Positions 2,416-62,422 of a stretch of DNA of 64,000 nt are shown one piece after another. The position numbers and the translations under genes are program-made. This stretch comes from Candidatus Siliceabacter maunaloa (GTDB lineage: Bacteria; Actinomycetota; Thermoleophilia; Solirubrobacterales; Solirubrobacteraceae): positions 62,001-126,000 of the forward strand of contig JANDLV010000004.1 in the NCBI GenBank assembly GCA_024330185.1, written 5' to 3'. Below the pieces are notes generated by a model. The model was not told the origin of the DNA. It did not search any database and saw only the letters and a program-made list of their open reading frames with translations. The stretch's first letter is position 1. The number at the start of each line of letters is the position of its first letter.

Positions 2416-3213
2416 CTACCCGAGCGACTCCTCGAGCCGCCTGCGCTCGTCCTCGAGGGTGGCGCGGGCCTGCTCGACGCCGTCGATGCGCATCACGTAG
2501 GAGCGCACGGCGGCGCTCTCGAGCAGACCGTCGCCCTCGTCGTTGGAGCCCAGCTCGCGGAAGCGCAGGAGGCGCTGCGCGATCGCCGCGGCGTCCTGGT
2601 CGCCGATCGCCCCGCGCAGGCCGCGGGCGGCCTGGCCCGCGGCGTCGAGGCGCTGCACCTGGGTGTCGTGGGTGGGCTCGAGGACGGGCGGGGGCTCGAG
2701 GTCGTCGAGGTCGTCGACGATCCGGTCCAGCGCGTCGGCGTAGCGACTCAACGCACGCTGCTGGCGCTGCGGCCTCGCGTCGCCCTCCAGGCGGTCGCCG
2801 AGGCGCTCGCCGGCGGGCTCGAGCGGCTCGAGGGCGTCCTGCGCGGCGGGCAGGTAGACGGCCAGGTCGGCGGTCTCGGTGGCCAGTCGCCCGTTGGCGT
2901 CGAAGAAGGTCAGCAGCGCCTCGCGCAGGCCGCCGACCTCGGGCGGCGCGTCGAGGGCGGCCAGCTCGCCGCGGGCGAAGAGGATGTCGTCGCGGGCCTC
3001 CCCGAGCTGCTCGACGGCCAAACGGCCGTCGATGCGCCCGTCGCGGAAGGCGGCGTAGGCCTGGTTGGCCGCGGCGAAGTCGTCAGCCGCGTCGCGCAGG
3101 ACGTCGTTGGAGCGCTCGACGTAGCCCTCCGCGCGGTCGCGTGAGTCCTCGCCGCAGGCGGCGAGCGCGAGCGCCGCGAGCAGCGGCGCGAGGACGGCGA
3201 GCCTGCGCCCCAC
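2416..3213 (-). CDS. Lipoprotein of unknown function, helical, Asp/Glu/Ala-rich
   Basis: A 265-residue protein with a clear lipoprotein signal: 'MGRRLAVLAPLLAALALAAC' has an arginine n-region, a hydrophobic core and a lipobox ending in Cys20. The mature part is rich in Ala, Leu, Arg, Asp and Glu with heptad-like stretches, suggesting a mostly helical, possibly coiled-coil domain anchored outside the membrane. I recognise no catalytic motif. The start is GTG. The gene lies downstream of the giant-protein unit on the same strand but is separated from it by a strong hairpin, so it is probably transcribed separately. Confidence 0.75.
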   Translation of the reverse strand: MGRRLAVLAPLLAALALAACGEDSRDRAEGYVERSNDVLRDAADDFAAANQAYAAFRDGRIDGRLAVEQLGEARDDILFARGELAALDAPPEVGGLREALLTFFDANGRLATETADLAVYLPAAQDALEPLEPAGERLGDRLEGDARPQRQQRALSRYADALDRIVDDLDDLEPPPVLEPTHDTQVQRLDAAGQAARGLRGAIGDQDAAAIAQRLLRFRELGSNDEGDGLLESAAVRSYVMRIDGVEQARATLEDERRRLEESLG

Positions 3214-3290: not shown

Positions 3291-4394
3291 CTAGCCGGCC
3301 GGGGTGATCTCGGTGACGATGACGTTGGCCGTGCCGGACCCCTGGTCGTCGGGCTCCTGGGTGCCCGTGGCGTCGGCCGTGAGGATCACGCCGCGAACGT
3401 CGAGGTCGGCGCCGGTGGGCCCAACCTCGATGACCACGGCGGTGCCTGCCTGCGCGGGGATGTCGCTGGGCGGGATGTCGGCGGTGAACAGGCTTCCCGC
3501 GACCGCGTTGTCGAGGAAGATGCTGGCCGCCCCGTACTCGGCCACCGGGGTGGCACCGTCAGGCGTCTCGTCCGATGCCTGGAAGGTCACCTGCACGACG
3601 TAGGTGCCCGGCTCCAGCTCGACCGGAGCGGGACCGATGAGCGGATCGCCGTCGTCCGTTGCATCGGGCGCGCCTGACGCCAGCGAGCGGCCCGAGAGCA
3701 TCACCGACGGAGTGGCTGTGGAGGGGTTGGCCGTCAACTGCGCACCCGGCGTCCCCTGAACCCCCGTCGGCCCCTGCGGACCCAGCGGACCCAGCGGGCC
3801 CTGCTCACCCTGCTGGCCCTGCGGGCCGCGGTCGCCCTGCGGACCCTGCGGGCCCGTCGCGCCGGGCTGGGCCCCCGCGCGCTGGACGGCCGCGCCGATG
3901 ATCTGCTCGGCGTCGAGGTCGTCGAGGCGGTCGGCGTTGAGGCCTGTGGCCACACCGAGCGCGTTGGTGGTGAACGGCTTGGCCGACGGGTTGGGGGTGT
4001 CGTCGTCACCGGCCTGGATCGTGCCGCCCAGCGGGCCGCCGAAGGCGAACTCGAAGGCAAGGCCATCGGCCAGGTTGGTGGAGCGCATGCAGGGCTCGTT
4101 GCCCGCGTCGGTCCCGCCCCCGCCCGAGCGGCAGCCGTAGATGGCGCCGCCGCCGTTGTCGGACTTGTTGGACTGCCGCGTGCCGTAGCCGTCGGTGTCG
4201 GCGATGATCTGCGTCTCGCGCGTCAGGTCGTTGCCCGCGCCGCCGGCCGGGTTGCGGGCGCCGCCGCGCAGGGCGTCGCCTTCACCCGCCGCCATCGCGC
4301 CGGTGCTCATCAGGACCAGTACCGCTGTGGCCCCTGCCAGCCAGCGCAGCTTCCAGCCGCGCTCCCTACGTGCCTCATGTCCCACTTTGTCCAT
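3291..4394 (-). CDS. Exported collagen-like protein with C-terminal beta domain
   Basis: A 367-residue protein. The ATG at 4394 is preceded by GGAGG at good spacing, which favours it over an upstream in-frame start. A basic n-region and hydrophobic stretch ('WLAGATAVLVLMSTGAMAAG', about residues 17-36) form a signal peptide or anchor. The middle part has the motif 'CRSGGGGTDAGNEPC', which may form a disulfide loop. Around residues 175-217 there are 14 uninterrupted Gly-X-Y triplets (GPQ, GDR, GEQ, GPT and so on), a collagen-like triple-helix segment. The rest looks like a beta-sandwich domain such as caps bacterial collagens. The first 20 bases overlap the 3' end of the giant gene, so the two are probably translationally coupled. 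Role is inferred to be at the cell surface. Confidence 0.85.
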   Translation of the reverse strand: MDKVGHEARRERGWKLRWLAGATAVLVLMSTGAMAAGEGDALRGGARNPAGGAGNDLTRETQIIADTDGYGTRQSNKSDNGGGAIYGCRSGGGGTDAGNEPCMRSTNLADGLAFEFAFGGPLGGTIQAGDDDTPNPSAKPFTTNALGVATGLNADRLDDLDAEQIIGAAVQRAGAQPGATGPQGPQGDRGPQGQQGEQGPLGPLGPQGPTGVQGTPGAQLTANPSTATPSVMLSGRSLASGAPDATDDGDPLIGPAPVELEPGTYVVQVTFQASDETPDGATPVAEYGAASIFLDNAVAGSLFTADIPPSDIPAQAGTAVVIEVGPTGADLDVRGVILTADATGTQEPDDQGSGTANVIVTEITPAG

Positions 4395-7300
4395 CCCCCT
4401 CCGTGTTGGTGATTGTCGAACGGCGCGCGGGCGTGGCCTCGGCGCCATAGAAGATCGTGTCCTCGCCCGGGGTCCGCGCCGGCAGCGGCGGACGGCCGAA
4501 GCGGGCGAGCTCGCCCCCGGCGATCACGCCGCCGGCGTTGTCGAAGACGGTGTCCGAGCCGCTGCCTCCTTCGATCTCGTCGCGGCCGTCGCCGGGGGCA
4601 TCGAACGGCGCGACGATCACGAGGTCCCCGCCGGGGACGAAGGTCCTCCCGACCTCGCGGCCGTCGCGCAGCGTCCCGTCGCCCTGGATGACGTCGTCGC
4701 CCAACCCGCCGAGGATCAGGTCGTCGCCCGCGCCACCCGCGAGCCGATCGTTGTCGTAGGTCGCCGCGCCCAGCCAGGGCGTGTCGAACGGGACCACCTG
4801 GCGCACCAGGGCGCCGGGGATCCCGCCCGCGAGGAGCTCCGAGGCGCCGCCCATGAGGCTGCCCAGCGCGAGGATCGAGCCGTTGTCGCCGATGACCGCG
4901 TCGCTTCCGCCGCCCGCGTCGATGACGTCGCCGCCGTCGGCGCCGCCGGAGACGTTGTGGCCGCCGACGATGTCGTCCGGCCCGTCGCCCGTGAAGATGC
5001 GGTCTGCCCCCTGGCCGCCCAGCACGATGTTGCGCCCGTGCCCGGCGTCGACGACGTCGTTGCCGCCCTGGTGGAAGCCCTGGGTGAACGCCGAGGTGAA
5101 GGTGAAGGGCACGGGGCGCGAGGGCACGCGCGGGCGCAGCGGGATCTGGCCGATGATCTGCCCGAAGTCGCCGAAGACCAGGTCGTCGCCGAACCCGGTG
5201 GTGACGGCGTCGCCGCCCGCGCCGCCGATGACGTAGTTGCTGCCGGGGCCGACCGCGCTGATCCTGTCGGGGCCGCCCAGGGTCGGGTCGAGGGGCACGA
5301 TCGCGCGGATGGACAGCGGCCGGCCGGGCCCGGGCTCGTAGGCCACCTGGCCGTGATCGCCGAAGACGATGTTGTCACCGGCGCTCGCGTCGATGATGTC
5401 GCCGGCGGCGCCGCCGAGCAGGACGTCGTGGCCGACGCCCGCGAGGATGAGATCGCCGCCGCCGTGGCCGGCGGCGACGGTCTCGACGAGCTCCAGCGAC
5501 CCGCCCGGGGCCCACACGATGCGCCCGCTGTCGCCGATCGCGATGTTGTCCCCGTCGCCCGCCCGGATCGCGTCCGCGCCGACGCCGCCGATGATCAGGT
5601 CGTCCCCGCCGCCGGTGGTGACGGTGTCGTCGCCGCCCGCGCCGCGGGTGTCGGCGCCGGTGTTCGTGCTGCGCGCCTCGCGCAGGTGTCCGCCCAGCCA
5701 GGTGACGACGCCGTTGTCGCCCAGCACCAGGTTGCGGCCCCAGCCCGCGTCGATGACGTCGCTGCCCGCGCCGCCGAGGATCACGTCCGCCCCGCTGTTG
5801 GTGGTGATGGTGTCCTCGCCCCCGAGCTCGCCGGCCAGGGTCGCGACCCGCTCGAGCAGGCCGCCGGCGCCGATGATGACCTCGCCGCTGTCGCCGACGG
5901 CGACGTTGTCGCCGGTGCCGGCGTCGATCTCGTCGGCGCCGATGCCGCCGAGGACGATGTCGCGGCCCGAGCCCGAGCGGATCCGGTCGGCGCCGCCGGA
6001 GGCGGCACGGTCGGCGCCCGTGTCGGTGCTGAGCACCGAGCGCACGGCGCCGTCGGTGAGGCGGACGACGCCCTCGTCGCCGAGGACCACGTTCTGGCCG
6101 ATGCCGGCGTCGATGACGTCGCCGGCGGCGCCGCCCAGGACGACGTCCCAGCCGTCACCGGTCACGATGGTGTCGGCGCCACCGCGGCCGGGCGCGATGG
6201 TCACCACGAGGCTGGGCAGCTCGCTCGCGTCCGCCACCACGCGGCCGCTGTCGCCAAGGACGACGTTGTCACCGTCACCCGCGCCGACGGTGTCCGCGCC
6301 GAGGCCGCCGACGATCACGTCGCGGCCGGAGCCCGTGGTGATCAGGTCGTCGCCGCCGGAGGCGCCGGCGTCCGCGCCGGTGCTCGTGGACAGCACCTCG
6401 CGCACCCAGGTGGTGGCGAAGGTGACCGCTCCCTCGTCGCCGAGGACGACGTTGTCGCCGTTGCCGGCACGGATGACGTCGGCACCCGCGCCGCCGAGGA
6501 CGACGTCGCGCCCGCCGTCTGCGGTGATGACGTCGCCGTCGCCCATGTCCGGGGCCAGCGTGGTCACGAGCTCGAGGAGGCCCGTGTCGCCCAGGGAGAT
6601 GAGCCCGCTGTCGCCGAGGAGCACGTTGGCGCCCGCGCCGGCGTTGACGACGTCGGCGCCCAGGCCGCCGATGATCAGGTCGTCGCCGCCCGCTGTCGTG
6701 ATGGCGTCGCCCGCTCCGGCTCCAGACGCGTCGGCGCCGGTGTTGGTGCTCATGACATCACGCACGATCCCGCCGACCAGGCGCACGACCCCGTCATCGC
6801 CGAGGATCACGTTGCGCCCGCCGCCGGCCTGGATCGCGTCGCGGCCCGCGCCACCGATGACCAGATCGTCGTCGGCGCCCGCGCTGATGGTGTCGTGAGT
6901 GCCGTACAGCGGCGCGAGCACGTGGACCAGCTCGAGCAGGCCGGTGGGGCCGAAGACGACGGCGCCGGCGTCGCCGAGGATCACGTTGTCGCCCGCGCCG
7001 GCGTTGATGGTGTCGGCGCCCATGCCGCCGATGAGGACATCGTCGCCCGCCCCGGTGATGACGGTGTCCGAGCCGCCGGAGACCGGCTGGTCGGCGCCCG
7101 TGTGCGTGGAGAGCACCTCGAGCAGCATCCCGACCGCGTAGCGCGTGCGCCCGTGATCGCCGAGCACCACGTTGTCGCCCGCGCCGGCGTCGATCGCGTC
7201 GTCGCCCTCGCCGCCCATCACGACGTCGGCGCCGCTGCCGGAGAAGATCACGTCGTCGTGGCCCCGCCCGTGGGCGATGGCCTCGACCACGGCGACGGCG

Positions 7301-37300: not shown

Positions 37301-40300
37301 CCGCCGATCGCGGTGCCCCAGTCGAGGAAGCCGGCGCCGTCGGCCCCGGTGACCGCGACGCCGAGGTCGCTGACCTGCGCGGTGAGGAGGGTGCCGACGG
37401 CGAGGGTGCCGGCGAGCCCGGTGGCCTGCACGACGCTCCAGCTACGCGCGTCCGTGGGGTCGCCCGTCGATAGGGAGGCGATCGCGATGCTCGCGCCGGT
37501 CAGCGCGAGGCCGAACGTCGCGGTGCCGATGTCCAGCGTGGCGTCGGTGATCGAGAAGGTCAGGAGCTGGCCGTCGTCGAGGTCGTCGCCGCCCGCCGAG
37601 TCGACAGTGCCGTCGCCGTCCACGTCGACCGGAACCTGCGACCGCTCGAAGGCGATGTCGGCCATGCCGACCAGGAGGCCGTCGCCGATGTCGATGGCCG
37701 CGTCATCTGCCGAGCCGCGGCTGGTCCCATCCGCGTGGGTCAGCATCGCCGGGGTGCCGCCGGTGTCCACCGAGATCGGTGTGGCCGAGAGGTCGAGCGC
37801 GCTCCCGTCGCTCGCGGCGGTGTTGAGCGCGAAGTCGAAGGTGCCGGTGGTGAGCTCGAGGCCGTCGATGCCGACCAGCGAGGCGCTGAAGGTGGTGTCC
37901 AGCGCGACCCAGACGCGGGGAACCGCGCTGAGCGTGACCTCGACGACGAGTGCGAGGGCCAGCTCGGTCAGCGTCCCCTCCAGGCCCAACGTGTCCAGCG
38001 TGCCGACGAACAACTGGCCGCCGGCGACGTAGAGGGTGGTCACGAGGGCATCGACCGTGGTGCCGCCGACCAGGGTGAGGGTCTGCAGATCCGGCGTCCC
38101 GAAGGTCGCGCTGGCGGAGAGGTGGATGAAGCCGCCGAGCGAGAGCTTGACGGGCCCGCCGCCCTCCTCGATGGAACCTGTCACGCCGGCATCCTCGGCG
38201 AGCTCGAAGGCATCCTCGGCGATGCCGCCGGTGAGGTTCTCCACGCGGGCGAAGTCGACGACCGTCTCAGCGCTGCGCAGCGTGCCGGTGTCGATGCCGT
38301 CGAGGATCCAGGTGGTGGAGGCGTCGGGGCCGACGAGCGTGTCGGCGCCTTCGCCGCCCTCGAAGCTGACGGTCACGTGCTCCGCGACGACCGAGAGGGC
38401 GATGGTCACGACGTCGGCGCCGCCGCCCCCGTTGAGCACGAGCTGCGTGACGTCGGTGAGCGCGCGCTCCTGGGGCGTGCCGTTCACGGTCACGACGAGG
38501 TTGGTGCCGTCGGAGGAGACGGTGACAGTGGTCCCGCCGTCGGGAAGGTCGATCGTCCAGGCCGACGCGCCCGGGTCGACGGTGTAGTGCGAGAAGTGCG
38601 GGAGAGCCGCGCTGACCGTGCCGGTGACCGGGTCGAACGTGGAGTCGATCGCGACCGGGCCGGCGACCGGGTCGAGGTAGACGATGGTCGCGCCGGTGGC
38701 GGCGGGGTCGACCGGGAGGGTGAGGACCGGGTCGAGGAGGAAGGTGGCGATCTGCTCCCCGGTGATCGCATCGAAGGCGAGCAGGTCGTAGACGGTGGCG
38801 GCGCCGGGGCCCTGGAGCGTGGTGGCCACCACGAGGACGTGGGCGTCGGCGGGGAGGGCGCCGGGGGCGAAGACGAGGCGGGCGTCGCCCGCGGTCACCG
38901 TGCCACCGCGCGCGGCGGTGATGAGCACGGCACCGGCGGGAGGGCCGCGGGCGAGGGTCGAGCCGCTCGTCGTGGATGCGGCCGCGTCGGTGGTCGTGGC
39001 GGAGAGGTCGGTGCCCGGCGTCGGGCCGCCGGGCGCGAGCGCCTCGGCGAGGTCGGCGGCGAGGTCGGCGGCGGAGGCGCCCGAGGCGGTGCCCGGTGCG
39101 GCGGCGGTGCCGTCGGTGCCGGGGGCGGCCGGCGCGGGCGACTGGTCGCCGGTCGTGACGGCTGGATCGAGCGGCGCGCCCGTGACGGGGTCGAGCCCCA
39201 GGCCGTTCGTGTCGGCGATGGTCGACTTGTCCGCGGAGCCGGTGGAGGGGCCGGCGTCGGTGGTCAGGGTCTGGGTCGTGGCGGGCTCGTCGAGCGAGAG
39301 GACGGGAGCGGCGGCGGTCTGTGGGGCCGCGGCGAGGGTGAGCGTGTCGGCGGTCGCCTCGAGGAGCTCGTCGGTGACCGGGGGCGGCGGAGGAGGAGGC
39401 GGCGGCGTGACGATCACCTGGACGGTGACCGGGACGAGAGCCGGCTGGGCCGGTGCAGAGAAGGTGGTCACCGGCGCCGCGACCGGGGCCGGAGCGACGA
39501 CCGGGGCCGGGGGAGCCGCGGCCGGCGCCGGAGCGGCGGCCTCAGCGGAAGCCGCGGCCTGCGCCGGAGCCCCGCCCTCGGCCGGAGCCGGCGCGACGAC
39601 CGGGGCCGGAGCCTGCGCGGGAGCGGGAGCGGGAGCGGGAGCGGGAGCGGGAGCGGGAGCGGGAGCGGGAGCGGCGACTTCGGCCGGAGCCGGAGCGACG
39701 GCCTCGACGGGTGCTGCCGCTGGAGCCGGAGTGGCGGCGTCCGGCGCGGGAGCCTGGGCCGATGTCATGGCGGGAGCGGGCGCCGGGGCGGACTGCATCA
39801 CGATGGTCTCGGTCGTTGCGACCGAGCTGGACGACATCGCCCCGGAGGTCTCGCCGTCGCCGCCGCCCGACCCGTCGCCGGTAGTGTCGTCGCCGGACGC
39901 TTGGTCGTCCGACGCGCCGCCGGTCGTGTCGTCGCCGGACCCCTCGTCGCCGGACCCGGCGTCATCGCCGCCGGCCGACCCTCCGCCCAGGTCCGACCCG
40001 CCGTCCTCATCCTCGTCGGTCGTCCCGGTGCCGCCGGTGGCCGGCGGCGGGGTCGCGGGGGTCAGCGAGACGCGGGAGGCGAGCAGCTCCTCGAGCAGGG
40101 CGATGATCTCGGCGGTGCGCCGCTCGATCTCGGCGCGGCGCTGCGCCTCCTCGGCCGCCGGGTCGACGAGCTCGACCTCCGGCATGAGCGCCGGCGCTTG
40201 CACGTCGACGACCTGCACCTGCGGGTCAGGCGCCGGCGCCGGCGCCGGCACCGGGACGGCCTGCGGCGCGGGCAGGCCGCCGAAGGGCGTGTCGGTCGGC

Positions 40301-40806
40301 GGCGGGGCCAGGGGCGGCACGACCTCGGCCTCGGGGTCGGGCTCGTCGGCCAACGGCAGCGTCGGGCGGGCCATCGGGAAGCCGCCGGCCGGAGCCGACC
40401 CCGCGGGCTCACCCGGGTCGTCGTCGGCCTGCCCCGGGCGGTCTTCGCCGCGGTCCTCGCCGCTGTCAGCGCGCCGGGCCTCCCCGGCGGCGTCGCCCTC
40501 GTCGCTCCTGGAGCCCGCCTCGGGGTCGCGGTCACGCTTCCCGGAGTCAGGCGGCTCGAAGGCCGGGAAGGAGAAGCTGGGGACCTCGAGGCCCGGCAGG
40601 CCCCCGTCCCCGCCGCCGGCAGCGGCCTCCGCCGCCGGCGCCGCATAGCCGCCCATGAGCGACCCCAGGCCCAGGACCACACAGGTCCAGGCCAGGGGCC
40701 CGCGCCTCAGGCGCGAGATGCCCAATCCGTTGGACGGCGAGACGCCGCCGCGCCCCCCCGGGCGCAATCGATTCGATGAGAGCAAGGTGTGTTTGATGTT
40801 GCGCAC
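4375..40806 (-). CDS. Giant secreted multi-repeat protein (12,143 aa) with ZU5-like, beta-module and RTX calcium-binding arrays
   Basis: One uninterrupted frame of 36.4 kb; mass is over 1 MDa by estimate. Approximate order by residue: basic N-terminus and signal peptide 1-65 (hydrophobic 'LAWTCVVLGLGSLMGGYAA', Ala-x-Ala sites after it); Pro/Ala and Asp/Gly/Ser low-complexity linker 65-610; ZU5-like domain 620-741; at least 21 beta-modules 983-4209; 'YLDV' modules 4316-4603 and 5303-6526; long beta-repeat region 6526-7509; first RTX cluster 7650-7710; mixed GGxGxD-type repeats to 11,000, including a DUF642-like jelly roll (8880-9023) and two Calx-beta-like modules (10,233-10,453); alternating RTX array 11,056-11,976. 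I see no LPxTG motif and no enzyme motif. The start is GTG with AGGAG very close upstream, so the exact start is less certain than the frame. RTX families are usually exported proteins folding on calcium; adhesin or surface-layer function is inference. Confidence 0.93.
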   Translation of the reverse strand: MRNIKHTLLSSNRLRPGGRGGVSPSNGLGISRLRRGPLAWTCVVLGLGSLMGGYAAPAAEAAAGGGDGGLPGLEVPSFSFPAFEPPDSGKRDRDPEAGSRSDEGDAAGEARRADSGEDRGEDRPGQADDDPGEPAGSAPAGGFPMARPTLPLADEPDPEAEVVPPLAPPPTDTPFGGLPAPQAVPVPAPAPAPDPQVQVVDVQAPALMPEVELVDPAAEEAQRRAEIERRTAEIIALLEELLASRVSLTPATPPPATGGTGTTDEDEDGGSDLGGGSAGGDDAGSGDEGSGDDTTGGASDDQASGDDTTGDGSGGGDGETSGAMSSSSVATTETIVMQSAPAPAPAMTSAQAPAPDAATPAPAAAPVEAVAPAPAEVAAPAPAPAPAPAPAPAPAPAQAPAPVVAPAPAEGGAPAQAAASAEAAAPAPAAAPPAPVVAPAPVAAPVTTFSAPAQPALVPVTVQVIVTPPPPPPPPPVTDELLEATADTLTLAAAPQTAAAPVLSLDEPATTQTLTTDAGPSTGSADKSTIADTNGLGLDPVTGAPLDPAVTTGDQSPAPAAPGTDGTAAAPGTASGASAADLAADLAEALAPGGPTPGTDLSATTTDAAASTTSGSTLARGPPAGAVLITAARGGTVTAGDARLVFAPGALPADAHVLVVATTLQGPGAATVYDLLAFDAITGEQIATFLLDPVLTLPVDPAATGATIVYLDPVAGPVAIDSTFDPVTGTVSAALPHFSHYTVDPGASAWTIDLPDGGTTVTVSSDGTNLVVTVNGTPQERALTDVTQLVLNGGGGADVVTIALSVVAEHVTVSFEGGEGADTLVGPDASTTWILDGIDTGTLRSAETVVDFARVENLTGGIAEDAFELAEDAGVTGSIEEGGGPVKLSLGGFIHLSASATFGTPDLQTLTLVGGTTVDALVTTLYVAGGQLFVGTLDTLGLEGTLTELALALVVEVTLSAVPRVWVALDTTFSASLVGIDGLELTTGTFDFALNTAASDGSALDLSATPISVDTGGTPAMLTHADGTSRGSADDAAIDIGDGLLVGMADIAFERSQVPVDVDGDGTVDSAGGDDLDDGQLLTFSITDATLDIGTATFGLALTGASIAIASLSTGDPTDARSWSVVQATGLAGTLAVGTLLTAQVSDLGVAVTGADGAGFLDWGTAIGGVPLVVGGQSIELSGDLGTAGGLIEQVTIADLVTGSARFDVTRRVVDVAEASLVGAILVTLVLSELRLAIGTEDFGVQLDGGTVAIASLAPDETAGADARRWLGVQASGISGSISLGADLLTAVVEELAIEVNTAQGATPIDWTTVTGSGVTLTTDIKRVAGDLTAVSIAGGLVTGSASFDVTREVVDVDFDESGTIEVGEQNAVLLTVGVEDLVLAVGEGGDGIAITSGTIGVASLAPGIDTDTRRWMAIKARDLAGTAALGDDLSATVTGLALDVNRATGGASVLDWRVTSDGGSLQQPVQAGGQTIDLSGDLLSVSGTLSELNLVGLITGETGFSLTRSAVTVPTITPNDQPDATLLVLTLTDVDLRVGDVDAVHLVVSGGQLTLASVSPRGPPGSATDTRSWLALAGSLTSVALNGITDLTLAGSDLSLDLNTASGDLDGIAATALDWTGLGVPGIAFTAQTLLVAGTADLDAFGLVDGVVAFTFARAPITAPVDGTLTEVSLTVAPGQGGLFAGVPGAVGIMIGSGSLKLATITSTDATTTWTALQAALAEVTITGLPADLTFVVERLAVDVNRATGPGAQPLDWSTVDDGLDIDITGPLFALSGRADLDAFGLVGGLLDFAFATTTVALDGGPATLTTFGLTVVPTTDDPDGGLFVGVPDGVGFVVDSGTLALAVVTPTDIADTSRWYALKAEFSAIALTGVPDVLTLVARDLTVGLNDASGGTPAAAPLDWTAAGLDSPLGIDFEAAIIEVAGVADIKAFGLVDGLIGFVLTASEVDFDGGRADLTTLALTILAQGPDGSDAGLVIGVPDGPRFSVGAGTLALAVLTPVAAIGDTTPQPTYLALVADLVDLSLLGIEGLVLEARTLGVRVNRASEGATAIDWADAGTPVVDGITIDLSGPLTRVSGIARIAAFGVVAGLVEFVFTTTEVDLSLSDGVLEDVRLTTVGLTVIPGSAEEPGGGLRLGAPDGPGFSLDAGALALAVVAPPSSPGDGRQWIALKAELAGATLEGITGLTLIAQTLAVRVNAASGTAAPGSPAAAPLNWRTQVGGTDGTTFTPTQVVIGEGVNAVTIDFEGGAFTEVSGRAQLDAFGLVTGVVTFSLSSGEADLRLLDGTFVDGATLTTIGLAIVPEDGDDANGAEGLRIGIPGGPGIAFASGSLGVAIATPALMDVAFPAGHRWLAVQVSDLSGTLDLAGLISATIEDLVIEINEVTSGSGLDWATGVGEHGGDDFTPEAVSAGGQPIDAGELTFAISGGMDLSILDLVNGSATLDLTRTITTISGSAGGDVPVADLLTFTLTDLSLTVGDPDGIHFAASGGQLTLAIAAPRGPPAGSVTDTRSWLAIQGGFQTIAFSGIEGLTLEAQSLALEINRASGAYDADGTGTGSSPIFAGALDWQTALPAGASTIDLTQEVLRASGIATFDLGGFVTGRVGFSFEQREVRVDVDAAQDSDGVFLPAPGGDLAGATLTLIGLSLLDPLRIGDPGGVGFSVAGGTLAVAALTPAATATGDTRSWLAVTARLEGGSFEGIEGLEATVDELAVAINQAGGAYTPTGGAAVPAVALDWTRAIDLDTADPAFAADPVVVRTSTDDGVDEQTIAFEEGVTGASGTLTVDIFGFVTGTVGFAYEARTVDVAVGTQTLVGAQLTLLSLTIENVFVGAPDSVGFRVMGGSLAVATVTPAADPTATEPDERSWLGLKGTLTGGSLEGIDGLTIDVVELTVAINRGTEGELAIDALDWTTALGAGNALQIGGVTIDMDREMTRATGIADLDILGFVSGRIGFSFETRKETVTLVDGEVLPDATLTLLALTIEDLFIGEPGGVGIAVDEGTLALAAVRPAPPATSTGTQNPRSWLALSTTITGGSFQGIDGLTLDLVSLAVEINRGSSAGAPIEALDWTTAFADPVVITDADGDEVTIGYETAVQRASGVADIDAFGLLRGTIGFGFEAQTVDVDLDGNGTRDLADARLTTLTLEVDSLFLGFNGIGFAVESGTLAVAVLKPAAPATGMPADPRSWLALTSNIQGAGLVGIPGLTLIAHTLQLEVNRASGGTTPPAPLNWGTTLDLDRDGTFAEELTLGEGNDAVTIDFAGPLLRIAATATARIADFVLVHGSFAFERADDLFVTPVGGTTTTRVSLMKVGISGATVFAGVGLPADFGPRTDDLAASGAIGVALEDVELGLALMRQVPATPTSTTPLRTYTALTGSGAAALIGVEGLTLAGTLQIAVNTATDPNLPAGQIAPVVDFTRLPGGGLAVQTGPDPDGAGEQAAPSVTLDFAGRLVRAAGSLTLAIDAFAFISAQFAFEQGEPIPVTLEDPDGDGPLAAPTGTVTALQIGASEGRAFFGVGGPYFVDSNGDGVIDGDDDPAADGALGLVVDDVELALALMTPSAALAAATGLASFFALKASGSVQLVGVEGLTASIETVTIEINQGRLAATAPTGRRALAVDFSGAPLAIQTGPDPDGTEGEEEPPSIALDFEGTVFRAAGTLSLSIGGFVHLEGSVAFEKGAPITGATLADGTGAGDVTALRIGASGVTVFVGINGPDGPDAVGLRLTGVELALALVKPVVQGTGPAPTRSYYALSARAASIALVGVDGVTIEATELLIEVNGASDSAAAPGALIPVFDFSSVGEDGLVVRTGPAVDGEEAPSRTIAFDGALLRAGGRVTFAIAGVELAATIAFEQTTRANGVKIIRVALGDVDIAFGEPAAFAIENASGLLLITDLGIAATFEVPVSLSFGDSVSFSGNLGLSINTAAVAVDERFLLAGGAQERLQLAAGPFFRLSGTDLELTIEGVVLTADLVFEQITLPGTPVTKLIRIAVTNLSLSFSDPEFDAVSLSNGRGGLILLPTVAGRPGGIAGVLGGEFSAGPVEGEPILRINTTNAPVNQTIVVNGSAVTVDVPADTFALTFRNVSISFGDNLVLTGDFTFEQRGDRRVWGATNVELFLGEGPYRLEDGSVNPDALGVVITGATVGVVSFATGNAPATYAIYAYGAAALVGLEGLTVSGTLRVRINTTGQAVNELITLPGLDPADTETIRVNFATGARTEIFEVGVDEGGAADPDARLTISIGGIVTISGSIAFTRQPSGRIDIRAQDAGIAINIPGADGLTEAFALRGLAEFSFGGGQGFQLRSLIVTGFDVLGTRVASVTPPASALRPPVASLAGPVAGERLSVTALNARGYIDVRFRSVNGVAINPGSITDDTAEFVLVGPAASGVGVNGRAQQLDPTADPGVFRYTFSGSFALTGGRSADTVEIQFLPGSYNDLAGAVGAAGSESLVVLAPATTPASVPTASLASPFNGSVVNLRTLLARPYVDVIFSPGTGGTVDATTIDGNEIRLTGPGAANFVLGTGGVVTGTPLRLLPTGNTWRYFLTPRTGVPAANGEIAVEILDFVFGSTTTPAWQTTDDRTPVRGAGTFTVASEVQTAGTAAGTVALGPVTLLQPTIGLAGMGFVDGQLVLTVGIEVNQATLAFGGAATARLDGILGTFDVTVDIAAAAGALSDPSALLGAFGVPGKFGLSVASLTVTVPGVLNAKATRVAITYDPSKDATQQLVAIGTASLEFPSFGLTGTIVPTTQTPNGLTIYGDGFLLGQATLIYRPNQNGVPGVIRFGSILEFDDLRIGVQDFGIRAGQEIVFDGSVFFASGGVRFLPGRSISGVISDRTTAEPGRDQPGMPDTEALRATLEFEGGEVSALRFNVDTLRINLGSFLTLTARDFVLNTGAGPDEVLVSFQSLGAEVTVGSLTIGGEARNFAFLGDGSFDARDNFGVFLSVGAASGDSFKWPTWLPIRINAIGIEWPDIEADPSDFLLTLSASVTELTFVPGLEFSGSIEGVKIDVGMLLDGEFPIVDIASLGVSVRGQLFGGEINAALIGGILKIGAGNVLIDPLDRTTPVIDRVFFIGVEGGFEFPGIGGLSIRFAMTELGPLGVFISASVPGGILLEPNTGLSLNDFAAGVDFFKTLPSIDDPMELRGPDFRLPTNVSVDNWLATVKSQALAQYRALQANPNLSGFTAAFTAPMTITGSAKIFSIYTSQQLFNGQVTIKFSTDGKFLIIGTLNFAADNISISGRLYADLSRVAQGAVTVLFLADIPDQVRVLTLYGRLKMGFRDANGVEVGFAVPDSAPAAPTPTLAGPRHGGTVGQQALNGRGYVDVRFTVPTGQRLDPASIVDAGDEFTLTGSGGTLALDRTQAPVLVSANTYRYWVVGTGTGASIVALADSWTTTVLASGAIEAGATVTLLATRTDVTYLDVALLPTAAGEINPTSVTAADLQLVSGAAGVTPAAGLAPMRIPGTNVWRFFFTGTFQTGTVTVRFASGAISDGSGITSAAMTESFAVAVPRAEVIGPVTPGQSVDVTVLRAQVVGGKLYLDVSFTPTPGAELNYASIFDSGNELTLTLPDGTTVNLAVPEAIELSADAVTGLVTATVVDVSPATDGTLSAADLKILRDAGVTQFRYAFDLAASDLDPGELTIAFTANGWSDSSGNTGQGTGGTVRVLGPTGSVNDPQAESGIDINVINGRNWLDVSFPQPPAGWLLDFASILDLAPELALGGPGIGTIQLDGSRAPIVVDQAARTIRFWLTGAFASVDAELSDSAVELTFLPGTFAYVPVAASGLAPTAVVAITDPRFVDIAFPAAPAGFAIDPDSVTDLGPAEFTLSYVQRIEVSATDDTVTIWFPRGGNALHVPSISAGGAEFTLSGDGLGTAVLTLDACDAATGACTYDVSSGALADGDLIVDFVTGSWSLVRAGSGAIFASVAPTVDVAYLALVTGAGYRFKILGDFYAGDANRPADALRVTFVGGRWSFVQPGAPALRGTMADQSATNDRSYLDVVYRPTSGGALNPTSITGDEFAFAGAGAAGVSVVGAPTHLGDGVYRYYLQGDFTVGLVQVVFTAGSWSTTDGHTNLAETLAFRVLGPTLDLVDPADEGAAGSRELNERGYIDVSIVAPAGKELDLATVTDLEPEFLLGGAGAMGLALALVAPVLLRRDGNTYVLRYFTTGTYNGGDLTVTLLTQSAARGFAYTDGQVNQFTGPVAPTSPTVSGVATPNIGYLDVRITPTSGDALDPAALDGDEIVFSGAGAGTAQILAVAPTALPGGSVFRFYFTGAFAPGEVVVTFVGDTVRSGVVPDGFAGHANLGEVERLLIRELTGQLEDPPSGGVIDAGALNDRGFFDVVYTLPAGGVEDLDVDAVLDLVADFTVAPGAGAAGTIALDATRPPVLLEFDEEAGTFTFRYFYLGTLGSGDVELTFEDGGELLPVEETVAVGGLTFIDVRFDLAGAELDPTSLDGDEIVLSGSGAAGVEVEGAPLHVGDGVYRYFLRGTFGAGAVIVTFQPGSWADEAGNEGIAGSQRFQVVEPAPAPDPDDPTPGQVFFIELSGGMELRVADLLGDEPVLEIRGQVTLEIGSVEREGETRTRFALSASGTIKLLEPIGNIASGAASFVLETGDSLADTEFWGVVAFQTNFDFLLDYGIDISGSALLTLNVTDRVQVETLTLEGIPGGAVFTVDRTEALLAALPDVPFEVTPLDPLWATVFANPPPTGDGMITLATGQVLRQEMFGADFVEEGATIVAVQVGMQWRVKDGAGRTFFVELASELVDGAPAKDVFLIRGEQRTYELEPLSFAVEIVGALRIFNPADDTETYFRMDGGFVLRIDPTRFELFITAGGEIPAVGLEGRVVGLVVLDRTAAIPGIAAYFSVDVAVGAGGTEEQETGVSDIAGIFQFEGRVKVMLNTTLTEQSFVIPESFQGLLPADFPPSVTIYAAAPDLDGTQRDGADPEIYVQILVAGSMNLQDTLTLNGLFAFTIAGNDEGGSVRITGAVSTSFPFLGSLSGSVDFLFYAGEDQSGIAGRATLVLQRSLIPGVSITGGVLLEVNLNTNGAAREVNTFVTCEQAGETGCASPLSLVIEDDGEFARDDITLDHGLRLVIVGELQIAGLVDLDGRFTFQIATTPTLRVLITVDASLVLGPLGSVAITGAMQLDARGLALQATLEVNFSALGLTLDGSASLELNTTGSTVEVNDGARTYTVPAGFKLAIAGTVTFLDLATAGGSIVIAVQNGEFTLDFNVAFTLGPFTIQAVGGAAIFDNGVALRLAVSVDFAVASIVKIKATGELQLNTSAQDRAVGGVMVAAQKFRLDLTGELKLLEIIRFETRFFIQIGGGAVNVGEGRTANSFDLAPGEWVIDFSAQASFLGLANLSARGWINSEGHFDLFLQGGFNLGGGGFGLFGSADIQVYLNENPATGLYRFGVKLNANVEAKIFGITLAGVGLSANLDAEGSGRVELKFSVTARIKILFITISKTANFNLGSVQLPKPIFLAGPAGSSPTTLGQRGFTGGILYLNMGSRALAHDGFAGRGVGCNDANTACDADEAFIVEHVSGTAGSSTVRITGMGRQQTFTGVTEIRAYAGDGNDSIVVREGVLVGVYFEAGAGDDSLVHLGDGAAELRGGEGDDYLELGPAARGTLVLLGEGGGDYLLNTSSAGASLTGGTGDDKLFGGTGADTLAGGTGKDELESGGGADTIDGGADDDIIKIPLPTSTAFPSVQGGGGTDYLVVSASAGADVLKVSALTGGVRIERFTGATVSADVDAMAVEELVIDLGPGADTLTVASLEGSGVRTVAVSAGKIVTDTGRTQLVSVIDESNPDVPPQQTEQPVLESRDDGAADRITIEGRAGADAFTVAGVGEVDGAVSSIQVVHAGVADFLLTDTLRGEGDTLVVDAKGGADLLDASALGTSDPLATTIYPDLVAVRLIGGTGDDRLIGSPFADVLDSGVGDDTVTGGAGHDVFLDAGGDDTLVESHDAAMGLFEDTFVVGELRADDGTTPFADVPVYDEQELIDLIRDPDGNPSFRTMSTGDRWAAGAIVEDLDGIFETVILTGGTGNNTIVVNDADNTIYIGGVARSVRPFDGRAVLDNFTDEPSEFPEHYVVTLTPGSAGSIEIADSGGALGVDELILNGTNQADDVVLGAAGSGAFRIGAVMARGVSTTVVSYRGLERVQVYTGGGADRVLSNDTAAVTIVDLGGGDDEITIGTVPLIPDAGNRTLEFPDGVPVVDTANMTNGNSAPLFVLGGDQNDRFEVNHNRATLWLHGGAGNDRFLLKTFLVLRENAKNTDEVTNLAELFGGTGSNRYEYLENAPVLINGGPGIDTLIIVGTPIADIFVITDTYVAGAGRIVTFVAIEAIEVDGAGGDDIVYVLATSDDFETIVNGGSGNDTIHIGGDAPTLVFDPPPFIYTPPAFTVTLPPELVYDEFNYSLDGFTFTLTLADWLARGGTFAFTSDDFSRVGRSLVASRVAHLQGAYSRIFPFVEVSAPTVAQIGGRVRYDFFFALLFAPSIQVTIGQFDLRYSIGRLEARSSLVQPPAVTVDPLPFAFAAGRSLDGSQVTGRLTIRGGLGSDRVLYHNQEGTPDEGQLIMRSVERRVQAGEINGVPVYAPELDPDTGEPIVDTYLSLEGAGLGIDRAGAERAEGGSIPYYGVELQEVERVELRLSDAGRDDFTVVETPAGLDLTIYAGGGNDRVTVNAIGGPTQVLGGAGDDIITVHSAGDDRALRGILSRLTVDGDREITELRIPVRDDEGYVQPFLDAPLVIVPVGGVLTAADGRTYRRAIIESILFDPDGTPGNGSPLQARTVVLDEGGAMVEQLVQEKGVQEYGIQKREGDDLLWFDTEGAETIDAAITGVPVILPAQQGDAGAQPVYVDEAFDEVLGQLGPSLVENGGFGVFVPRNATGGGWTTSNLDDFGGSSSGSFLLNSNSNGAAGTDPTISQTITGLTRGVTYRLTGSFANADLYGPDGGPSFGVFVSGSEDPVFEAGAGASGTFTYEFIASSDTVTITFVGERNGVDASYRVDDIALGALRTVSYVTDFVNGVNLWIDGAGRKVTDDSLNQPSLIPVNVTELQPFVTVGDVVSSATGGADSLVVLNSSVTGPTTVTLDVFRVPVAQLVDGLPVLHGAGTDTYFDDPDLRYHFGGERVIDPVSGLPMSYQGGEPVRDLFTGVVLTDPFGAPLTYADGDPMLHVAGDRVQQLRGAVERWLGGEQVRDEDGTPVFNGANPFRYAPGQVRIHDRGDVLDELVDVDGERVAIDATAYAAPTFTGVRLLDGTELDLDLGGFRDLAAGDRVVVTVYDATSIFTLSASEVSLVGNTVVLDPVEEIDRELMIRVTVVVPAVHEENDPVLYFGNEAIEAGDPVVDSQGFLTYDAQGAVVLHTTASAAGRNHRRGSPVYEPDGEGGWTAALYAGGEQRLALGNEPRLWIGGEQAHYFADDEVLEAVERNRIRVEGVDGMPGEILHTGVESLSLVLGSGDDLVTIVETHAGTTLVGTAAGDDSVAVRGTSGPTTILTGAGTDQVAVGSQAGDWGPELGFINANGTLNGIGDALTIDAGTGDGRERLSIDDTADGAANTATLTATTLTDLGLGGALTYTGFEDLELALGSGDDTLTIASTHPGERSTTTVEGRDGDDAINVRTVSSPTRIAGDGGFLPLTFGPDTMPAGAGDDEIRVGSTAPGSLGTLDAVIALLTIAGGDGRDRLLLDDTGGTAGDIGEITGSTISGLGMTLGPVGAQPDALHRVDVRGPSSGTFSLSVAGYGTTGPIAVDATARVVRDALVALLGVTTADVTVARLADSYLIAFRGALAGAAGRALGPVGVTATPGVTATAQAMTDGRVDYTDIETLDVNLGSGSDAVHVEGTSAATRIETRDGDDLLAVNALPVRTSGNTLLGRLTLVGGRGSDTYQVNRFGDGDSQIDVIDSETDGGSNLLVVDGTSGDDQFLMREGLIALLTGLLADGSYTQAERILYDGDLTAGVIINGLDGDDHFAFDDTTTVFTVNGGDGDDTFQFGQLVGEPFTIDGVEVDIQTLLEAVRTTRGLLTPGASFPTTINGGEGNDRFIAFRNVGPLQLNGEAGDDLFVVRSFLDLDDDTQINAGTGNDLIAYVISAPVNLDGGDGNDTLLVLGTEADDVYVVTRDGIYGGGRFVSYLNVEQVDIDGLEGDDTFLVRSTAADTRTRVFGGLGSDTVNVAGDASPVVSDDLRGHSGLIAHGVESADPRWDGLAVDGVAADVADDDEPAVVLTQSGGDTMVGEAGETTDAYTVTLTRAPTTEVRVTVAAPQRTPAEAQRGARSVLVSTDGVTFTRSVTLVFATDPGEWDEPQTIWVRAEDDQAAEGERVVALRHLVVSPGGEYDGLVLPNVAVRVLDDELADPILPAVPPIGGDAPGVVITQSDGSTRVIEGGATDSYTAVLNEAPTTDVTVVAQALPTPTRQPGEPAREDVQVLLSLDGVTWAETVTLTFTPEDWDVAQPVYVMAIDDGYVDGSAVQAFAGGLQRTNAIQGPLYIDGGIDEEAGEEREIPDPVLLPNETAGPLPIPDDPAFQIVEDLQVDTLNVFNGDSLVDETGVLTSTTLTGLRMGPEGITYASFEDLAVHLGHGDDRLRVETTHAGTTRITGGAGADDFEVVTLSGPTLIEGDAGDDEVTVGTLAPDTGAGTVDAILALLAIDGGAGTDTVRVDDAGDTDDNLGTLTQTTLTGLDMAAAAGADRIYSITLGQGADEFTITLAGIGSVALPAGASAAEIQAALQTLLFPGADTCGLEGASRCAQSVFVWKLGGDLLIGLRGEVAGAAGPLLGATAEGTTATDLLRVDGINYYGLEHLDIGLGSGDDRFNVRGTLPRTTLTTGPGDDLVYVSDSADLGLLPQAIADRDLDTLHGLILHGTVVVDDLVFRGSLDLVEGELLIDAGAGSNTLAVSDRNDPDADPNVVITDRSITGLAEGEIHYAATGGDLGGQGWWTRQGDYGLFGRGITVYGGTGGNAFTIRSVLAGDRTPALFASTITTLYAGGGDDVVRIGVADGPARMLVVHGEDGDDRIDAASRGLRGTRLALLVFGNAGSDTIVGGLGPNVLFGDDGRVYHLRPSRMSEGFDVVLGGAPRPADLRHPVTGVRLTGDSSFLIPEVLTTVAPTQGGPLADVIRAGADDDLVFGGAARDAIDAGSGANVVFGDHGRVVLADTGAVAVVEAIAHGRGHDDVIFSGSGADVVMGGEGDDAIDAGAGDNVVLGDHGRTRYAVGMLLEVLSTHTGADQPVSGGSDTVITGAGDDVLIGGMGADTINAGAGDNVILGDAGAVVFGPTGLLELVHVLAPLYGTHDTISAGADDDLVIGGAGRDAIQAGGGRNVILGDDGVVRLVGGIVRDVMSTNTGADASGAGAGDAITTAGGDDLIIGGLGADVVNAGAGANVLLGDSGLISLGDTGLLELVTTLAPDMGDGDVITADGGRDVVLGGAGADVIRAGNGDNVVLGDEGAVTFATTWVREVLSTSTGADAGASGGDDLITTGSGRDVIVGGLGADTVGAGDGDNVVLGDSGRVVADASELPSLVVTIAPGRGGADTIVTGDGWDVVLGGAAGDVIDAGIGQNVVLGDEGVVRLTDGAVRSVLSTDTGADRAASGGADRIRSGSGRDIVLGGIGADEIDAGTGDNVAVGDSGEVIIGAGGLLERVATLAGELGGEDTITTNSGADVILGGAGSDVIDAGWGRNLVLGDNGVVTWLGGHLREARSTNTGADTRGAGGDDTVTTGGGDDLIIGGVGADAIRAGDGDNIAIGDSGRIVWAPGGSLELVETVAAGHGGGDLILAGVGHDVLLGGAAGDIIDASAGDNIVFGDHGQVAYEPGPGRPLSIRAIVPLDPTLGGPDRISAVGPGSNYVIGGAGGDAVTTGFGDDLVFGDFGQIIGQIPLRPRVPSRPVPFTFTSAFTQGFHQGGNDVVDAGHGRNIVLGGQGADRIFTGDGPDDIVGGHNVSGGADGGDVIDAGGGSDAVIGDNGSILALGSLMGGASELLAGGIPGALVRQVVPFDTPWLGAATYDNDRLAGGAGDDLILGGLGDDVIQGDGTLRDGREVGRTFVPGGDLVIVAPFDAPGDGRDEIEGGSGSDTVFDNAGGVIAGGELARFGRPPLPARTPGEDTIFYGAEATPARRSTITNTEGDGQSGT
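4880..7640 (-). repeat. C-terminal alternating RTX-type repeat array of the giant protein
   Basis: About 14 units spaced near 180 bp each end in an 'NVVLGDxG'-like motif (for example near 7340, 7165, 6985, 6800, 6620, 6440, 6255, 6080, 5895, 5715, 5535 and 5360). Two flavours alternate strictly through the core: one continues into 'LxxVxSTxTGAD', the other into 'LLELVxTLAP'. Each is followed by GGxGADxIxAGxG calcium-binding nonapeptide-like blocks. Confidence 0.9.
9450..10110 (-). repeat. Two tandem Calx-beta-like modules in the giant protein
   Basis: Two copies of a module of about 110 residues. Each begins 'VVLTQSGGDTMV' or 'VVITQSDGSTRV', continues with a Tyr-x-Val/Ala-x-Leu strand and 'APTTxVxVxV', and then has 'LSLDGVTW'-like and 'WDxPQ' strands ending in an acidic Asp-Asp turn. 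The pattern resembles Calx-beta calcium-binding domains; assignment is by eye. Confidence 0.6.
13090..13485 (-). repeat. Tandem GGExVxDxxTGxPLxY-type short repeats in the giant protein
   Basis: Six or more imperfect repeats of about 20 residues, such as 'GGERVIDPVSGLPMSY', 'GGEPVRDLFTGVVLTD', 'AGDRVQQLRGAVERWL' and 'GGEQVRDEDGTPVFNG'. A looser continuation ('GGEQRLALGNEPRLWIGGEQ') appears near 12,490-12,640. I do not recognise the domain. Confidence 0.65.
17690..17880 (-). repeat. First classical RTX nonapeptide cluster in the giant protein
   Basis: Consecutive GGxGxDxLx nonapeptides: 'GGTGDDKLFGGTGADTLA', then 'GGTGKDELESGGGADTIDGG'. These are the canonical hemolysin-type calcium-binding repeats. 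Looser copies continue on both sides to roughly 18,150 and 16,560. Confidence 0.9.
21230..24900 (-). repeat. Array of 'YLDV' beta modules in the giant protein
   Basis: About eleven modules near 330 bp each, opening with a strand such as 'GYVDVRF', 'YLDVSF', 'SYLDVVY' or 'GYIDVSI', then 'LDPxSIxDxxxEFxLxG' and a closing 'YRYxxxGxF..G.V.VTF..GSW'. Two more copies lie at about 27,000-27,860, separated from the main block by a different beta-rich domain. Confidence 0.8.
28180..37860 (-). repeat. Array of at least 21 large beta-modules in the giant protein
   Basis: Modules of roughly 420-500 bp (about 140-165 residues) are marked by a recurrent 'LxVxxNxAsG...LDW' segment. Examples are 'LALDVNRATGG', 'LAVDVNRATGPG', 'LALEINRASGA', 'LQLEVNRASGG' and 'LRVRINTTGQA'. 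Each also has a 'GFVxGxxxFxFExR' strand and a 'GxxGIxVxxGxLALAxxxP' strand. The array is continuous and diverged rather than recently duplicated. Confidence 0.85.
39619..39672 (-). repeat. Hexanucleotide tract (GGGAGC)9 encoding an (Ala-Pro) linker
   Basis: Nine perfect copies of GGGAGC on the plus strand read as Ala-Pro dipeptides in the giant protein, at about residues 379-396 inside the Pro/Ala-rich linker. Because the unit is 6 bp, slippage would change linker length without shifting the frame. Confidence 0.9.
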
Positions 40807-41839: not shown

Positions 41840-41846
41840 CCGGGCC

Positions 41847-41852
41847 ACCGTA
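41847..41852 (-). promoter_or_regulatory. Candidate -10 box (TACGGT) of the PAC2 gene
   Basis: A minus-strand TACGGT lies 7 bases upstream of the PAC2 ATG with no Shine-Dalgarno between, consistent with a leaderless transcript. It lies within the 25-base divergent intergenic region. Confidence 0.4.
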
Positions 41853-41864
41853 CATGATGGGTTC

Positions 41865-42785: not shown

Positions 42786-42877
42786 GGAGCGGCTGGGCCC
42801 GGTGGCCCAGCCGGCCTTCAAAGCCGGTCAGCGGCGGCGACCCCGTCGTGGGTAGGTTCGACTCCTACGCCGCTCCG
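42786..42877 (+). tRNA. selC: Selenocysteine tRNA, anticodon TCA
   Basis: The 92-base gene has an 8-bp acceptor stem (GGAGCGGC at 42786-42793 pairs perfectly with GCCGCTCC at 42869-42876) and discriminator G. The D arm is G/C-rich with a CGGT loop. The anticodon arm is CCGGC / CTTCAAA / GCCGG with anticodon TCA at 42818-42820. A long variable arm contains a GCGAC/GTCGT stem, and the T arm is GTAGG-TTCGACT-CCTAC. The 8+5 acceptor/T helix, the long variable arm and the CTTCAAA loop are hallmarks of bacterial tRNA-Sec, which decodes UGA at SECIS elements. CCA is not encoded. selA, selB and selD are not in the window. Confidence 0.95.
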
Positions 42878-62310: not shown

Positions 62311-62422
62311 CCCACCTTCCAGCCAACCCCACCATGACCCCACAGACCCATCTTCACCCCTAGGCCGGCCCACCCAGCCCCTGGGCCCCCGCGGGCCAGC
62401 GCCCCCGGATACCCTGCGCGCC

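Follow-up and report, generated by a model that had tools for sequence, protein, structure and literature searches.

A giant actinobacterial repeat protein with the core domain and module order of a cross-phylum family of giant proteins

Architecture of the locus

The window analysed here, a 64,000-nucleotide stretch of one contig of Candidatus Siliceabacter maunaloa, carries a large insertion between two conserved genes, most of which is taken up by a single giant gene. The features of the locus are the following (positions are those of the window).

1771–40966, no strand: insertion of 39,196 bp, between a PDDEXK gene (31–1770) and a PAC2 gene (40967–41962)
1859–2326, plus strand: ORF with a Uma2-type domain, inside the insertion
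2416–3213, minus strand: lipoprotein-like ORF (LAAC box by eye), inside the insertion
3291–4394, minus strand: small collagen-like protein, 367 codons, signal-type start; its ATG overlaps the end of the giant gene by 20 bases
4375–40806, minus strand: giant gene, 12,143 codons plus TGA, provisional GTG start, no internal stop and no N

In three related genomes the aligned ends of PDDEXK and PAC2 lie 101, 558 and 937 bases apart, and the site was found to be empty in all three genomes inspected among the 41 with PAC2. A search for inverted repeats at one end of the insertion revealed nothing telling. That the contig is a mis-binned piece of Rokubacteria was considered and rejected, because the insertion is bordered by PAC2 (78% to the same genus) and by the PDDEXK gene, which adjoin each other in relatives. 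The collagen-like gene and the giant gene are likely to share a transcript.

Integrity of the giant gene

The giant frame displays a coding composition over its entire length, with a GC content at position 3 of 0.88–0.99 in each of its 25 bins of at most 500 codons, and contains none of the ~194 stops expected over 12,143 codons from base composition alone. The opposite strand also holds two long ORFs, of 3,413 and 4,016 codons; these were dismissed as shadow frames, since their high GC (0.96–0.98) falls at position 1, the wrong place. The gene is free of any exact non-simple repeat of at least 30 bases, and the whole repeat units of the protein are 20–58% identical to their own reference unit; because long exact repeats are absent and the units have diverged, collapse or false joining of repeats, and misassembly of the gene by this route, appears unlikely. 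Since an AGGAG motif lies just 2 bases upstream of the GTG, the start is assigned provisionally and may shift by a few codons. The predicted product has a computed mass of ~1.23 MDa and a pI of 4.05. The host draft genome totals 3.79 Mb over 120 contigs, with a completeness of 95.4% and a contamination of 0.55%. Homologous frames of 10,331–10,918 codons were found in another genus of the same family, in five genomes, one of which is assembled in 4 contigs.

The 12,143-residue frame without a stop that a preliminary description had singled out from the sequence is accordingly one real giant gene on the minus strand, while its statements on rarity need revision. The genus Mobiluncus belongs to the actinobacteria, which had been presented as a group not known for such giants. 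An adhesin of 7,651 residues is reported from Mobiluncus (PMC10619420), and five Solirubrobacter-type genomes carry frames of 10.3–10.9 k codons. The rank of one of the longest bacterial genes is likewise overtaken, as relatives within the same protein family reach 22,500 codons and a protein of 39,678 residues has been reported from Omnitrophota (PMC10066038).

Module composition of the protein

The ordered domain blocks recognized in the preliminary description are resolved by profiles into A, B, core, B, C, F, G and H blocks, the profiles of modules A, B, F, G and H having been built from the window protein itself. From the N terminus to the C terminus, the protein comprises the following parts.

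40618–40806, minus strand: residues 1–63, signal-type leader with a long basic N-region, a hydrophobic stretch (residues 38–57) and an Ala-rich cleavage-type site, by eye
39007–40617, minus strand: residues 64–600, Pro/Ala-rich acidic linker, from sequence and composition
38551–38955, minus strand: residues 618–752, domain with 47% identity over 141 columns to an actinobacterial giant (L068 genome)
28033–38085, minus strand: residues 908–4258, module A, 19 units of ~155 residues, profile from the window protein, predicted long antiparallel beta meander
27010–27735, minus strand: residues 4358–4599, two B modules (~95 residues) upstream of the core, Ig-like by weak match only
24922–26544, minus strand: residues 4755–5295, conserved core domain, 41–74% identity to 28 homologues
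21217–24831, minus strand: residues 5326–6530, ten B modules after the core, weak Invasin_D3 match (E 0.004, below cut-off)
18433–21183, minus strand: residues 6542–7458, C region, present in 17 of 17 other giants compared
7606–18120, minus strand: residues 7563–11067, RTX-type F modules (~15) with interspersed domains (PF00353)
15487–16806, minus strand: residues 8001–8440, second conserved block, 54–70% identity in 7 of 17 other giants
9310–10122, minus strand: residues 10229–10499, two G modules, no Calx-beta match in Pfam
4633–7422, minus strand: residues 11129–12058, H modules (~nine), 120-residue RTX repeats of the GDNVVLGDxG type

The N-terminal signal sequence noted earlier corresponds to residues 1–63, a putative Sec-type signal peptide as judged by eye. 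The 12 full B units (residues 4358–6530) are split, two and ten, around the core. Pfam and NCBIfam searches were run on pieces of 4,100–4,343 residues, and Pfam was repeated on short pieces where the earlier reader was judged to have seen domains. These HMM searches, which the preliminary description had proposed as a check, recovered its RTX arrays (PF00353, E 2.3e-31, 107.8 bits, 14 stretches), the sole Pfam recognition above a family cut-off in the giant protein, and failed to recover its ZU5-, Calx-beta- and DUF642-like domains, for which there was no Pfam match (E ≤1 for pieces of 181–311 residues, E ≤0.1 for the long pieces) and none in NCBIfam. These labels were set aside, with room left for distant homology. 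The G modules are probably what had been called Calx-beta-like. Residues 618–752, which show no ZU5 match by Pfam, have a counterpart in the actinobacterial giant of the L068 genome and in none of the 16 other giants. The unrecognized module types of the earlier account are real, and one such stretch is a strongly conserved, cross-phylum core.

The block at residues 8001–8440, for which the Pfam piece covering most of it gave no match, is 28–37% identical over shorter stretches in the remaining 10 of the 17 giants. Its presence is at odds with the species tree. At the C terminus, no LPXTG or SLH anchor was noticed by eye, which makes retention of the window protein at the surface less easy to explain. 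The four Solirubrobacter-type giants whose ends were read all finish in lysine-rich tails (KKKAKKK type), which the window protein does not have. In these four (the L020, L023, L026 and L029 giants) the tail might act as an electrostatic wall anchor.

A conserved core domain in several phyla

Residues 4755–5295 form the most conserved part of the protein relative to four Solirubrobacter-type giants (54–56% identity, most other matching pieces being at 25–45%). The window core scores 976 bits against a five-row profile of which it is itself one row. The core has no model in Pfam or NCBIfam and no PDB sequence match at E ≤1. Two short peptide patterns were used to seed a single scan of 84,980 genomes, one per species, which yielded 29 confirmed core loci in 28 genomes. 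Judged from record titles and NCBI ranks, these belong to Candidatus Rokuibacteriota, Pseudomonadota, Planctomycetota, Thermodesulfobacteriota, Verrucomicrobiota, Myxococcota and Actinomycetota, plus an Acidobacteria bin. The core alignment and tree leave out L064, which is partial, and L073, which falls in the same species group as L072.

Given a contig of sufficient length, the core is found within a giant frame. Its frame spans the whole of the fetched DNA at 28 of the 29 loci, the remaining one being closed at one end beside an N run. Frames of at least 10,000 codons were found at 18 of 31 core places (the longest of 22,500, 21,975 and 21,117 codons), and 11 of the 13 shorter ones lie on contigs below 27 kb. 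Within Verrucomicrobiota the core was detected in 7 of 240 genomes at eight places, in frames of 7,781–20,466 codons. It is rare in the class of the window organism, occurring in 3 of 299 sampled genomes, the window's included, and the C region was found in 5 of 101 relatives, again with the window's own. The conservation of this domain, at 41–74% identity over seven or eight phyla, together with its absence from Pfam and NCBIfam, points to an important function that has gone unseen, and the core offers a handle for grouping giant proteins usually described as poor in annotated domains.

Two records deserve comment. The core of the L071 bin, titled as a Klebsiella pneumoniae MAG, is nearly identical to that of the Pedosphaera MAG L070, so that the record name is probably wrong. 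In the Olavius algarvensis associated bacterium, the giant frame of 21,117 codons is directly followed by one of 10,641 codons that reads like its continuation; the two are possibly one gene of ~31,700 codons with a break.

Module order is conserved across the giants

Eighteen giants were compared, namely the window protein, the four Solirubrobacter-type giants and thirteen others; seven are cut by contig ends. For this comparison 13 of the 29 core loci, picked for long contigs, were fetched in full. The order of one or two B units, the core, 4–19 B units and the C region is kept in all 18 giants (17 of them distinct). The G032 and G060 giants are identical over the C region. RTX-type modules come after C, with exceptions in the Olavius symbiont, where 11 of 14 RTX-type units precede it (one of four F units and all ten H units), and in one planctomycete, where 1 of 14 F units does. 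A units are recognizable in 13 of the 18 giants, always upstream of the core, and G units are present in 11, downstream of C. The A-module profile matches Solirubrobacter-type giants weakly (G012 and G184 among 146 family genomes). The window protein displays the order B(1–2)–core–B(n)–C–RTX in one giant frame, as read with module profiles derived from it, and at the level of sequence it belongs to a cross-phylum family of giants defined by the core and the module order.

Three sets of giants are close to the window protein. The LEPR-XLL giants (NF012209, ‘LEPR-8K') are homologous to it over thousands of residues and have the same body, with the B, core, C and RTX-type order and, in some of them, the A modules. 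The Solirubrobacter giants (S. phytolaccae, S. deserti, S. taibaiensis, CPCC 204708 and one further genome of the genus) share frames of similar size, the same order from the B modules on and a similar leader, but differ in their core, which is only 54–57% identical, in A modules that are hardly recognizable and in their own C-terminal tail. The nearest body is that of the Rokubacteria giant (L050, MGCF01000114.1), with 74% identity in the core and 70% over residues 8001–8440; it differs from the window protein in its length of 22,500 codons, about twice the window's, and is open at the contig end, where its N terminus is cut.

Origin of the window giant

The window core pairs with that of Rokubacteria in the core tree (support 99/99), and a single clade with the Solirubrobacter rows is rejected (p 4e-4, or p 3e-70 once the PROP3 bin is included). 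For the C region, a quick tree groups the window with Rokubacteria, a Solemya symbiont and Pseudomonadota (SH-aLRT 100) and likewise rejects a single actinobacterial clade. Compared piece by piece, residues 1001–9450 are nearest to the Rokubacteria giant in 38 of 42 pieces, and the last quarter of the protein is of mixed kinship. The leader has a different affinity: residues 1–110 align to the leaders of two Solirubrobacter-type giants better than did 1000 of 1000 shuffles in each case. A search of 151 relatives with residues 1–130 matched, besides the window, giant frames in G012 and G060 and short frames in G032, G047 and G184 (E 3e-7 to 1.6e-5). Four further leader matches (E 1.5e-4 to 3.8e-4) were judged to reflect Ala/Pro composition and discarded.

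Sequence comparison thus establishes the window protein as a mosaic, with a body nearest to the Rokubacteria giant and a leader nearest to Solirubrobacter, which is read as a transferred body joined to an actinobacterial leader. The alternative to transfer is old vertical inheritance: an actinobacterial ancestor with several giant paralogues, of which the window and Solirubrobacter lines kept different ones. The likeness of the leader to Solirubrobacter-type giants and of residues 618–752 to another actinobacterial giant fit such a history, and trees do not distinguish transfer from deep paralogy. It is nevertheless unlikely given the rarity of the core and C region among relatives, the empty site in 3 of 3 relatives examined, the 74% identity of the core to Rokubacteria with the matching affinity of 38 of 42 body pieces, and the rejection of a single clade with other actinobacterial giants for both regions.

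Export signals and the SecA-like/M50/HlyD locus

The giants of outer-membrane bacteria and those of actinobacteria differ in how they begin. LEPR-XLL is present in 8 of 8 outer-membrane giants with an assembled start region and in none of the four actinobacterial giants assembled there. In two of these eight the motif lies in an upstream frame, interpreted as the start of the gene cut off by a break; two of the eight were searched with NCBIfam, and both gave a match. Actinobacterial giants with an assembled start begin instead with a putative Sec-type signal peptide. In the window protein, where such a peptide (by eye) takes the place of LEPR-XLL, NF012209 was unmatched in residues 1–900 at E ≤1 (NCBIfam), and no LEP[RK]xLLS motif occurs anywhere in the protein.

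The neighbours of outer-membrane giants fall into conserved gene groups. Beside the Pelagicoccus giant, Pfam identifies OEP (TolC type), HlyD, GAF-HlyD, M50-like (weak) and SecA_DEAD proteins, and OEP and HlyD were matched in one further outer-membrane locus each. In 8 of 12 outer-membrane loci, the giant has both an M50-like and a SecA-like gene as neighbours; the other four have little or no flank (Rokubacteria, Klebsiella-titled) or carry the genes on another contig (Olavius symbiont, Desulforapulum). Both genes are present in the genome of the Rokubacteria giant. An M50-like gene of at least 200 bits was found in 21 of 23 outer-membrane bearers (16 of 18 among those that did not supply the alignment), the two exceptions being G199 and G211, and in none of six actinobacterial bearers (best 93 bits). 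In 11 of 11 tested genomes, six of which supplied the alignment, a SecA-like gene lies at most 4 kb from the M50-like gene. Eight actinobacterial genomes contain one SecA each only (frame of at least 952 codons), and in the window's own 95% complete draft genome, searches for the dedicated SecA-like and M50-like genes returned a single SecA (1,128-codon frame) and an M50 match of 51 bits, with neither dedicated gene found.

In Verrucomicrobiota, a strong M50-like match occurs in 15 of 240 genomes, and these include all seven that carry the core (p 8e-10, or 1e-8 without the centre genome, kinship uncorrected in both). The cut-off for a strong match, E 1e-150, was chosen after inspection of the list; at a looser E of 1e-50, with 51 matches, the overlap is again 7 of 7 (p 1.4e-5, kinship uncorrected). 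Since no core was detected in 8 of the 15 genomes, either other proteins use the export locus as well, as these eight suggest, or some cores escaped the search.

A locus with the same kinds of protein (SecA_DEAD, HlyD, M50 and GAF) was reported by Kamneva et al. 2015 (PMC4452313), in passages that describe its biological role as ‘completely unknown' and name no cargo. That locus is here accompanied by giants, outer-membrane members of the core family, whereas the window's draft genome shows neither of its dedicated genes. In the open-access literature, LEPR-XLL papers included, no paper was found that ties the SecA-like/M50/HlyD locus to giants. The LEPR-XLL giants and the export locus were thus each known by name; new as far as this literature showed are the core family, its fixed order, the tie to the export locus and a Sec-routed mosaic member.

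The same body probably leaves outer-membrane bacteria through a dedicated machine of SecA-like, M50, HlyD and TolC proteins that recognizes LEPR-XLL. A wider proposal, put forward tentatively as one possibility, is that the core giants are the cargo of this orphan locus, which would constitute an undescribed SecA-powered exporter recognizing LEPR-XLL, and that the actinobacterial members represent a natural re-routing to general Sec, in the window once a body originating in an outer-membrane bacterium had been fused to a leader of actinobacterial type and a tail with mixed affinities. The cargo itself would consist of one uninterrupted beta sheet with over 100 strands, a type of extracellular polymer that has yet to be described. 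The tie between giants, LEPR-XLL and locus proposes a cargo for an export system without an assigned role in 2015 and is directly testable, and the actinobacterial members suggest that a cargo can shift to a different export route.

Predicted structure

Structure prediction per module, another check that the preliminary description had proposed, succeeded for the A modules and gave a less certain result for the core. AlphaFold2 models two A units with very high confidence (pLDDT 96.7, pTM 0.89) as an antiparallel meander with long strands of 12–21 residues; the core model, of middling confidence (pLDDT 79.5, pTM 0.62), consists mostly of strands with a helical segment. It is by prediction only that the core and the pair of A modules form long antiparallel meanders of beta strands.

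Fold searches with these models returned weak matches. For the core, the best E value was 6.2e-4 at a TM of ~0.2, with rows that are nearly all beta-barrels in poor superposition; Z values reached 12.3 at an r.m.s.d. of 16.6, and the lowest r.m.s.d. among the matches listed was 8.5. Module A had no Foldseek match below E 0.001, and its Z values of at most 10.6, near the stated background of the tool, were again obtained nearly always with outer-membrane beta-barrels; one was with apolipoprotein B-100 (9coo_A; Z 10.6, r.m.s.d. 5.6 Å over 171 residues). A viral library gave nothing below E 0.001, a chorein-domain protein appearing at E 0.057 with a probability of 0.14. AsmA, VPS13 and TamB were not among the best 50 PDB matches listed, which says little. 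None of these matches was taken as homology.

The A region has a GRAVY value of +0.44, and the stretch before the core ranges from 0.06 to 0.59 in the 18 giants; five neighbouring proteins lie between -0.27 and -0.06. A test of even and odd faces for one hydrophobic side was marginal, 31 of 2000 controls being as strong.

Proposed function and alternative readings

We infer as the fairly probable reading, in agreement with the preliminary description, that the window protein is an exported, ~1.2-MDa, acidic, largely beta fibre of the cell surface or matrix, folded by calcium. Calcium-dependent folding of the repeats after export is established for RTX proteins. The chain would leave the cell N terminus first through the general Sec channel by means of its signal peptide; once outside, the C-terminal RTX arrays would bind calcium and fold, which would help to pull the chain out and stiffen it, and the beta half would form a long rod or sheet. 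Such a fibre may help cells to attach or aggregate, possibly in concert with the collagen-like product of the gene that follows the giant. Among the points against a fibre, the N-terminal half is hydrophobic for a soluble one (GRAVY +0.44), Sec export of 12,000 residues would be unusual, and the fold searches gave no clear match, with a core model of middling confidence.

SiiE, LapA and their kin are RTX adhesins exported by type I secretion, and the repeats of SiiE are Ig-type. The window protein is like these adhesins in being large and repetitive, presumably extracellular, and in having calcium-binding repeats. It differs from them in that no type I ABC transporter gene was present among the neighbouring ORFs scanned with Pfam, and in its modules, which are predicted beta meanders and not Ig-type repeats.

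An alternative reading is a protein that handles hydrophobes or lipids. In it the A modules, the core and the C region would form a continuous amphipathic sheet of over 100 strands, with lipid or hydrocarbon bound along one face, the RTX end being an export and folding device only. Apolipoprotein B, with its beta-belt, and the groove of bridge-like lipid transfer proteins are models for such an arrangement. The confident prediction of two A units as one meander is in line with bridge-like, AsmA- or apoB-type sheets, as are the contrast in GRAVY with neighbouring proteins, structural rows made up almost wholly of outer-membrane beta-barrels plus apolipoprotein B-100, and, at its poor score, the chorein-domain match. 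We consider hydrophobe or lipid handling of low probability nonetheless, since all structural matches are weak, the two-face test is marginal and the hydrophobicity could also mean a tightly packed solenoid or sandwich.

An RTX toxin or contact effector, pore-forming or enzyme-bearing and acting on other cells, is very unlikely. The RTX arrays themselves, NCBIfam matches to RTX toxin and serralysin-type families in the repeat region (far under the cut-offs) and the toxin-like role suggested for a Vibrio LEPR-XLL giant (PMC10868602) would agree with it, but neither Pfam nor NCBIfam identifies an enzymatic or toxin domain above cut-off, and the scanned neighbours lack the type I transporter gene. 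It is extremely improbable that the frame behind the proposed fibre is an artefact, that is, a chance open frame, pseudogene or misassembly: a GC content of ~73% favours long spurious frames and the genome is a draft of 120 contigs, yet the codon-position signal runs throughout, long exact repeats are absent, conserved genes flank the locus on both sides and homologues keep an identical module order.

Other features of the window

Three features lie beyond the insertion. A selenocysteine tRNA gene (anticodon TCA; 42786–42877, plus strand) is located near the PAC2 and HD-domain genes. A direct tandem repeat of 37 bp, in four copies with 87% matches (46405–46556), lies where a glycosyltransferase gene ends, ahead of a convergent PolX gene. 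A polymorphic-toxin-like ORF of 556 residues (60817–62487, minus strand) combines a PT-HINT domain (4e-20) with a following WHH or colicin-DNase nuclease domain (5e-17 and 3e-13).
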